Part shown: positions 2,923 through 5,024 of the stretch, piece after piece
Layout: every line of letters starts with the position of its first letter
How positions within the stretch are numbered: position 1 is the first letter of the stretch
DNA from: Actinomycetota bacterium
Lineage (GTDB): Bacteria > Actinomycetota > Actinomycetes > Nanopelagicales > Nanopelagicaceae
Direction: 5' to 3'
DNA: 32,472 bases
Assembly (NCBI GenBank): GCA_005787575.1
Contig: SYAN01000013.1
Coordinates: forward strand, 1-32,472
The notes under the pieces: model-generated
What the model saw: only the letters and a program-made list of their open reading frames with translations
Told to the model about the DNA's origin: nothing
The model's database searches: none
Program-made: the position numbers and the translations under genes

Positions 2923-4620
2923 CTATTTCCAATCCCAGACTTGTCCATCCAGTTCATCCCTTACTTCAATCCCTCGTTCGGCCAGAAGTTCGCGCAATCG
3001 GTCACTCTCGGCATAGTCCTTTGAGGCACGAGCTTGGATTCGAGCTTGGAGAAATCCTGAATCCTCCTGACTTAGTTCTCGCTTAGGTTGGATATCGACG
3101 CGCATCAGATCAAGGCCAAGCAATCGATCGGCGATTGCAAAGATTTCTGATTTGCAGGTTTCATCGAATGAATCGTCTTTTTCAAGTGAGCGCAACCGTT
3201 GTAGCGCTCGTGGAGTATCGAGGTCCTGCGCGAAATCAGATGCAATCTCGTCGATGATCAAAGTTGCTTGGGGGCTGGGTTGGTGCGAAGTGGATAGAGC
3301 TTGGTTTGCAAATCGCTCTCGCCACCTTCGAAGTAAGCGATCGGCAGCTGTGATTGATGCCCATGAGAGATCCATCTGACTTCGATAGCGATTCTCTAAG
3401 AAACAGAAGCGAACTGCCAACGGGTCCAATCCTCTTGCAATTACATCTGAGAGTAGGACAACGTTCCCCGCGCTCTTGGACATCTTCCTTCCTTCAAAGA
3501 GCAGGTGTTCGCCATGAAGCCAGAGATCTACTGCCTCATTCGTTGAATCGAGGTCCTTTGCTACGGGGTTGGACTGTGCCCGTTCATTCTCGTGATGGGG
3601 GAATCGAAGATCTATCCCACCGATATGCAGATCGATATGGCCATTGAGGAAATGAAGTGACATTGCTGAACACTCGATGTGCCAACCGGGAAAGCCCTTG
3701 CCCCACGGGGAATCCCAGATCATCTCTCTTCGGGCGCCAGCTGACTTCCAGAGTGCCCAGTCTGCATGAAAACGTTTTGCGCCGGCTTCAGTGAACTCAT
3801 ATCTGTGACCAGGCTTGAGATCGGAGAGTCGATTACCGCTGAGTGCTCCATAACTCTCAAAGCGCTCACTCGAGAAGTAGACCGAACCATCCTCACCTTG
3901 ATAAGCAAGGCCTTTATCCATCAATAGCGAAATGTGTTGATGCATCATCTCAATACATTCACTCGCGCGTGGGTAATGTTCAGCCTTCTTTATCTTGAGC
4001 AGGGCGAGATCTCTATGGAATTTAGATTCATATTCGCGTGCAATCTCAAAGGGATCGCGCTTTCGTTCCTTAGACTCCTTCAAGATCTTGTCCTCATCAA
4101 AGTCTTCGCTCATATGTCCCACATCAGTGATGTTCTGAATAACCTTGACTTTGAATCCTGCAAATTCAATCGAACGCCGAACCAGGTCAGTTAGAAGAAA
4201 TGTCCTCAAGTTTCCTACGTGGGCATCGCGATAAACGGTGGGTCCGCAGCAATAGATTCGAACCTCTTTGTTATCGCTACTTTGGATCTGGCGCACTTGT
4301 CGCGAGAGGGTGTCGTAGATACTGACTCCAGTTCCCCTCCCGCCTTCATTCATATTTTTCTCGCCATCTGCGAGTGAACGTGCAGTAGCGCTCTTAGGGA
4401 GGACCTCGCGGAATGCAAAGATTGCAGCGGGCTCGAAAGCCACAATCGAGCCATCTCTTCTTTCAACCTGATCTGCGGCAACCAATGTTCCAAGCAAGTC
4501 TCGGTATCCCCCCGCGGCCTCATGAAGGCGGATGCTGACCCGCCGGCCGATGAGTGAGGCAAGAGCGTGATGGTCTCGGCCACGCACCTGGCCTTTGGAC
4601 TCTCCACTCATCGGGCTCAT
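2923..4620 (-). CDS. cysS: Cysteinyl-tRNA synthetase-like protein with an extra N-terminal small-barrel-like domain
   Basis: CCGPTVYRDAHVGN (HIGH region), WHIECSAMS, FPHHENERAQS, GRKMSKSAGN and a full C-terminal region ending DYAESDRLRELLAERGIEVRDELDGQVWDWK. The ORF runs to 4722; the ATG at 4620 is preferred (TAACCT 7 nt upstream on the minus strand). Confidence 0.85.
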   Translation of the reverse strand: MSPMSGESKGQVRGRDHHALASLIGRRVSIRLHEAAGGYRDLLGTLVAADQVERRDGSIVAFEPAAIFAFREVLPKSATARSLADGEKNMNEGGRGTGVSIYDTLSRQVRQIQSSDNKEVRIYCCGPTVYRDAHVGNLRTFLLTDLVRRSIEFAGFKVKVIQNITDVGHMSEDFDEDKILKESKERKRDPFEIAREYESKFHRDLALLKIKKAEHYPRASECIEMMHQHISLLMDKGLAYQGEDGSVYFSSERFESYGALSGNRLSDLKPGHRYEFTEAGAKRFHADWALWKSAGARREMIWDSPWGKGFPGWHIECSAMSLHFLNGHIDLHIGGIDLRFPHHENERAQSNPVAKDLDSTNEAVDLWLHGEHLLFEGRKMSKSAGNVVLLSDVIARGLDPLAVRFCFLENRYRSQMDLSWASITAADRLLRRWRERFANQALSTSHQPSPQATLIIDEIASDFAQDLDTPRALQRLRSLEKDDSFDETCKSEIFAIADRLLGLDLMRVDIQPKRELSQEDSGFLQARIQARASKDYAESDRLRELLAERGIEVRDELDGQVWDWK

Positions 4621-4697
4621 GAGGGGAAGGTTATGCGAGAATGTCGCACCGAACATTGAGAGAATCTCAACCCCTGAGCCGAAAGGAATCTCTTTCG

Positions 4698-5024
4698 ATG
4701 ACATATGTAATCGCCGAGCCATGTATCGATGTGAAGGATAAATCGTGCATCGAGGAATGCCCAGTGGATTGCATCTATGAGGGCGGAAGGATGCTCTACA
4801 TCCAACCCGATGAATGTGTGGACTGCGGGGCTTGCGAACCCGTCTGCCCGGTCGAGGCGATCTATTACGAAGATGATGTCCCTACCCAATGGAGCGAATT
4901 CAAGGGATATAACTCGGACTTCTTCGATGAGTTAGGTTCACCTGGCGGAGCCGCAAAGGTGGGGCCAACCGGCAAAGACCACCCAGTAGTCCTTCAGATC
5001 CAGAAGAAGCCGGAGAGCAACTGA
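4698..5024 (+). CDS. fdxA: Seven-iron (3Fe-4S/4Fe-4S) ferredoxin, FdxA-like
   Basis: MTYVIAEPCIDVKDKSCIEECPVDCIYEGGRMLYIQPDECVDCGACEPVCPVEAIYYEDD; ATG at 4698 with AAGGAA upstream, so the ORF start at 4641 is too early. Confidence 0.95.
   Translation: MTYVIAEPCIDVKDKSCIEECPVDCIYEGGRMLYIQPDECVDCGACEPVCPVEAIYYEDDVPTQWSEFKGYNSDFFDELGSPGGAAKVGPTGKDHPVVLQIQKKPESN

Follow-up and report, generated by a model that had tools for sequence, protein, structure and literature searches.

Canonical cysteinyl-tRNA synthetases (CysS; TIGR00435; Escherichia coli structures 1li5 and 1u0b) have a catalytic domain, a zinc site, a KMSKS motif and an anticodon-binding domain. Two related enzymes are without the anticodon-binding domain: MshC (TIGR03447; 3c8z), the CysRS homolog of mycothiol synthesis, and CysRS* of the Desulfobacterales, a paralogous CysRS that is coupled to SelC* and charges it (review, PMC9437257). 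A further system of relevance is the Rv0428c/CG3035-type GNAT acetyltransferase, in which an N-terminal SH3-like domain (PF24551) precedes the acetyltransferase domain (PF24553). Our literature search found no paper joining Nanopelagicales with a cysteinyl-tRNA synthetase. We analyzed a window of 32,472 nucleotides from a Nanopelagicaceae genome (1.24 Mb in 105 contigs, 88% complete; here G000, contig C34), in which elements of the CysS and GNAT systems occur in a single reading frame.

The long open reading frame lies on the minus strand and runs from an ATG at 4722 to the stop at 2923 (599 aa); with the likely leaderless start at ATG 4620, the fused coding sequence occupies positions 2923 to 4620 and encodes 565 aa. 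On the same strand, the protein consists of an SH3/Sm-like small barrel (4408 to 4551), a linker (4327 to 4401) of low model confidence with a possible internal ATG at 4353, a class I CysRS catalytic domain (3343 to 4287; PF01406, E 8.7e-91) and a C-terminal anticodon-binding domain (CysS_C, 2935 to 3078; PF23493, 30.5 bits against a cut-off of 23). The HIGH-like motif, HVGN (4210 to 4221), and KMSKS (3472 to 3486) are intact, the zinc ligands align with C28, C209, H234 and E238 of E. coli CysRS, and the protein scores 375 bits against TIGR00435 (cut-off 340). In a model of the 565 residues, the barrel and the CysRS form two separate, well-predicted units, and the synthetase most closely matches 1u0b, E. 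coli CysRS bound to tRNA-Cys, in structure. On the plus strand, the gene is flanked by mshB (1724 to 2584; TIGR03445, 338.7 bits, cut-off 224), a small membrane-like protein with conserved synteny between mshB and the synthetase (2581 to 2919), and a divergent actinobacterial fdxA (4698 to 5024; 181.7 bits to NF045480, with the alignment beginning at residue 20 of ORF 4641), with dapC confirmed as a further neighbor. The first-pass annotation had described a small-barrel-like N terminus and a CysRS core with intact HIGH-like, zinc-ligand and KMSKS motifs in one frame, next to mshB and fdxA; the reading frame, the fold, the alignment with E. coli CysRS and the family models all agree with that description. 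The named relatives carrying the locus are Nanopelagicaceae, the freshwater acI actinobacteria.

A phylogeny of the synthetase core with CysS and MshC placed the window protein in a clade of its own with a support of 100, which we call CysRS2, apart from both the canonical CysS of Nanopelagicaceae and MshC. CysRS2 shares the domains and motifs of canonical CysS but differs in the HVGN form of the HIGH motif, a TDVGH insertion and the extra N-terminal barrel; its best-scoring NCBIfam model, the PRK14536-type cysteine–tRNA ligase (NF011108), gives 376.6 bits, far under the curated cut-off of 780. From MshC it is further separated by a score of 227.6 bits against TIGR03447 (cut-off 485.1), by the presence of the anticodon domain and by the fourth zinc ligand (the E238 equivalent), which CysRS2 keeps and the MshC proteins aligned here are without. 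A search of the window genome recovered, beside CysRS2, an MshC homolog (L002, contig C24; 474 bits to TIGR03447, curated cut-off 485, next best family 270) and the C-terminal 42 residues of a canonical CysS, of which a contig end has left just the 3' part of the gene, followed by an rlmB-like gene. The full canonical cysS is present in the sister genome G003, and we rejected the idea that the gene is missing from the window genome.

The first-pass annotation had left the choice among a housekeeping CysRS, a second CysRS and a substitute for MshC. The first and the third gave way: the enzyme is not the housekeeping CysRS by itself but a lineage-specific second CysRS, distinct from canonical CysS and MshC. 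That it replaces MshC in mycothiol synthesis was suggested by its position beside mshB and by the kinship of MshC to CysRS, but we consider the probability negligible and rejected the idea, because the genome keeps its own MshC homolog, as do the relatives checked. The adjacency to mshB is uninformative, since relatives that yielded no CysRS2 (G008, G013, G059, G067, G074 and G080) share the order mshB–(GNAT)–fdxA–dapC.

Matches of CysRS2 strength were present in 121 of the 151 family genomes (counted from result rows); the other 30 gave none, some of them being incomplete. Relatives at 52–55% identity occur in a few other families of the class; beyond these, 396 Actinomycetota genomes were sampled, and 18 of them have relatives at 41–48% identity. 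In six of these 18, all from one actinobacterial family in another part of the phylum (f32: G190, G205, G216, G227, G238 and G260; 90–96% complete), a protein of the CysRS2 type was the sole member of the CysRS family found, with no match to canonical CysS or MshC. This argues that an enzyme of the CysRS2 type is able to do housekeeping work as a CysRS, and its ancestral job was probably the charging of tRNA-Cys. Combining the clade, the motifs and the f32 genomes, we infer that CysRS2 charges tRNA-Cys, and the window gene would encode an additional cysteinyl-tRNA synthetase, apart from CysS and MshC, in which the activation of cysteine has most likely been retained. A distinct role for CysRS2 is nevertheless likely because these streamlined genomes already have a canonical CysS, and a plain duplicate should be lost.

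We considered a second or special tRNA-Cys, or a tRNA-Sec, as the partner of the enzyme and rejected it on evidence from relatives, the tRNA pattern having matched no true tRNA-Cys in G000 or G001. The complete genome G019 has one tRNA-Cys (GCA) among 37 tRNAs, all assigned and none with a UCA anticodon; most other genomes tested have one tRNA-Cys by pattern, no tRNA-Sec above the gathering score was found in eight genomes, and no tRNA lies in the window or in the neighborhoods scanned.

One fused subclade is truncated at the C terminus. Its proteins end just before the anticodon-binding domain (L113, L127, L130 and L132; genomes G068, G092, G111, G115 and G119 of group g8), and the three truncated fusions scanned (L113, L127 and L132) gave no match to PF23493. 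The catalytic motifs are kept, and the five g8 genomes also give canonical-type and MshC-type matches. A clean loss of the anticodon domain, as in MshC, hints at a changed acceptor by analogy, and CysRS2 might have left translation to ligate cysteine to an acceptor other than tRNA-Cys, as do MshC, which has the same truncation, and CysRS*, which charges SelC* without an anticodon domain (PMC9437257). We find this unlikely: in the window protein and the majority of CysRS2 the anticodon domain is present with its conserved residues, the zinc ligand lost from the MshC examined is retained, the searches gave neither a tRNA-Sec above the gathering score in eight genomes nor, in G019, a second tRNA-Cys, and the truncated form probably reflects a single event. 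A single truncation event is not enough to show that the barrel took the place of the anticodon domain. A more far-reaching proposal, in which the fused barrel took over the recognition of acceptor or RNA and CysRS2 is becoming a new cysteine ligase, one subclade having shed the anticodon domain in a repetition of the step that made MshC, is more speculative still, and we give it a low probability.

The barrel itself gave a weak match to a known domain. Queried alone, residues 58 to 105 of the 599-aa frame, the segment quoted in the first-pass annotation, hit PF24551 (SH3_Rv0428c) with an E value of 6e-4 and 20.3 bits, under the cut-off of 27 bits. Since the true GNAT homologs encoded at this locus fall short of that cut-off as well, we attribute the low score to divergence of the lineage and not to a false match. 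The homology to the N termini of these GNATs is clear: over 61 aa, the window barrel is 57% identical to that of the intact GNAT which G001, a genome of the same genus, has at this position. The acetyltransferase domain PF24553 was not found in the window protein in a Pfam profile search but is present in the homologs of G001 and G007; the GNATs of the relatives score 109–143 against an N-acetylglutamate synthase model with a cut-off of 280. AlphaFold2, given an alignment of 70 rows, predicted five strands and a helix for the barrel, where pLDDT exceeds 90; the N-terminal region has a confidently predicted small-barrel fold. Foldseek matches to the barrel model included GerQ and Hfq among the best, with E values of 0.02–0.2 and none below 0.001; homology to Hfq is not supported, as the fold is similar but the matches are not significant and Pfam gave no Hfq match. 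Taken together, sequence comparison identifies the N-terminal domain of Rv0428c-type GNATs as the source of the barrel, a resemblance already named in the first-pass annotation.

Comparison among relatives placed the fusion in a series of locus states. The family-wide gene order is mshB, the small membrane-like gene, CysRS2 with the barrel or GNAT gene, fdxA and dapC, with either half of the CysRS2–barrel unit sometimes missing. Among 99 CysRS2 loci, several of which are repeats of an assembly that a different collection also holds, we found 28 with an intact GNAT just upstream, 34 with a barrel-only mini-gene, 27 fusions and 10 with no barrel found. Two of the barrel-less loci start at contig ends (L086 and L088) and a third, L137, falls outside the clade of the family. 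With fusion at 27 of 99 loci, the extended N terminus is not routine in the clade. Within one genus and one unchanged neighborhood, the full GNAT (G001), the barrel alone (G002) and the fusion (G000, G003 and G004) coexist. The full GNAT also stands at the locus where no CysRS2 was found (G008, G013, G015, G059, G067, G074 and G080), and we infer from this that the GNAT state is ancestral and the barrel-only and fused states are derived. These relatives, in which its stages are represented, support the earlier suggestion that the acetyltransferase part was lost and its N-terminal domain joined to a CysRS near fdxA. We propose that CysRS2 came to lie in the mshB–fdxA interval directly behind a GNAT gene of the Rv0428c type; that several lineages deleted the acetyltransferase part and kept a leaderless barrel gene of 60–70 aa that usually overlaps CysRS2 by four bases; and that, again in several lineages, an in-frame fusion of the two genes followed. 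We regard the architecture and this history as well supported. Many stages can be seen at the locus in which a domain is excised from one enzyme, persists as a free-standing protein and becomes attached to a second enzyme, a course taken more than once. It is a natural experiment that bears on the reasons for which synthetases acquire extra domains and on the route by which one of them may come to resemble a ligase of the MshC type.

The fused genes are not an artifact of assembly, as complete genomes carry them too, among them G019 and CP015603, the record of the cultured acI strain IMCC25003. On the CysRS2 tree, for which five duplicate loci were dropped, fusion requires six changes, at least four of which are unavoidable given branches with good support, and the full set of states requires 18; the counts are undirected and refer to gene lineages, since the tree may include transfer of the whole locus. 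Constraining the fusions to a single clade lowers the log-likelihood by 178 units, and the AU test rejected a single ancient fusion (p-AU 3e-134). By this phylogeny, the fusion arose several times. The fused form has been kept across whole clades, including a set of 11 Planktophila-like loci. The linkers of Planktophila-like fusions, among them L089, L092, L041, L068 and relatives, carry a recurrent motif, PVFNRRD.

An internal start codon could make a fusion only apparent. In 11 of the 27 fusions, this is impossible because the linker contains no ATG, GTG or TTG, and these genes are expected to yield the fusion protein alone; in the window itself, ATG 4353 would allow an internal start. The concern raised in the first-pass annotation, of a start within the CysRS part, thus falls for those 11 fusions but stands for the window. 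For the start of the fused gene, we consider ATG 4620, the end coordinate already given in the first-pass annotation, likely because fdxA begins at 4698 by family alignment, a −10-like box of the TAnnnT type, TAACCT (4628 to 4633, minus strand), lies 7 nt upstream in leaderless geometry, and TAnnnT boxes cluster at similar distances in relatives. Such a box precedes the candidate start by 6–7 nt in 50 of 89 barrel genes or loci, the spacing being 6 nt in 39 and 7 nt in 10, and this recurrence at the starts of barrel genes points to leaderless initiation.

The same boxes, and the four-base overlap with the CysRS2 start at 28 of the 34 barrel-only loci, would also fit a barrel segment kept only for its leaderless promoter and operon start codon, serving as a translation leader of CysRS2 and not as a functional domain. 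We regard this as improbable: the segment has a confidently predicted fold and is retained where CysRS2 is absent, no barrel was found at ten CysRS2 loci, of which at least two begin at contig ends, and selection acts on its amino acids. Purifying selection on the barrel is seen in all of the states, including where the synthetase gene is absent. Computed for pairs with unsaturated pS, pairwise dN/dS of the barrel was 0–0.08 in mini-genes, 0.05–0.15 in GNATs and 0.02–0.32 in fusions, with 0.03–0.09 in mini-genes without CysRS2 (two estimable pairs); estimable values from pairs with substitutions span 0.02–0.32. The pair including the window is among the loosest, with 0.32 for the barrel and 0.05 for its core; pooled pN/pS of the barrel was 0.26 in fusions versus 0.11 in mini-genes, values subject to saturation of pS.

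The barrel has two candidate roles: a cis-acting accessory module, or a small protein in its own right whose fusion is incidental. In the latter case, the barrel would have a function apart from cysteine charging, and the fusions would be largely neutral in-frame joins of overlapping, translationally coupled genes. Its persistence and low dN/dS in genomes without a CysRS2 found, the looser constraint in fusions and the mechanistic ease of fusion across a short overlap are in keeping with such a protein; repeated fusion and the persistence of the fused form across whole clades, as in the Planktophila-like loci, are less so, and we see this as possible but on the unlikely side. We favor, with somewhat better than even confidence, an accessory CysRS2 that charges tRNA-Cys and has repeatedly been joined to the GNAT-derived barrel as a module. 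The barrel would then be a cis accessory that binds RNA or a partner, the fusion guaranteeing one barrel per synthetase. Counted against this explanation are the canonical CysS already present in these streamlined genomes, the genomes without a CysRS2-strength match (30 of 151), the loss of the anticodon domain in one subclade, the looser constraint on the barrel in fusions, the occurrence of the barrel without CysRS2, and the weakness of its likeness to Sm and Hfq.

Barrel-only genes without a CysRS2 found occur at the same locus in G113, G127, G130, G140, G131 and G152 (66–72 aa), with a longer one in G107. Conserved barrel-only proteins of 66–72 aa at this locus, from genomes with no adjacent GNAT domain and no CysRS2 found (L169, 4913–5113; L170, 5003–5221; L171, 4831–5049; L172, 4921–5139; L174, 5078–5278), are a candidate family of free-standing small proteins. 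The assembly G004 contains, beside its fused gene, a second, unfused CysRS2 (contig C66, 1191–2573) that is 64% identical to the window protein; this assembly may be a mixed bin.
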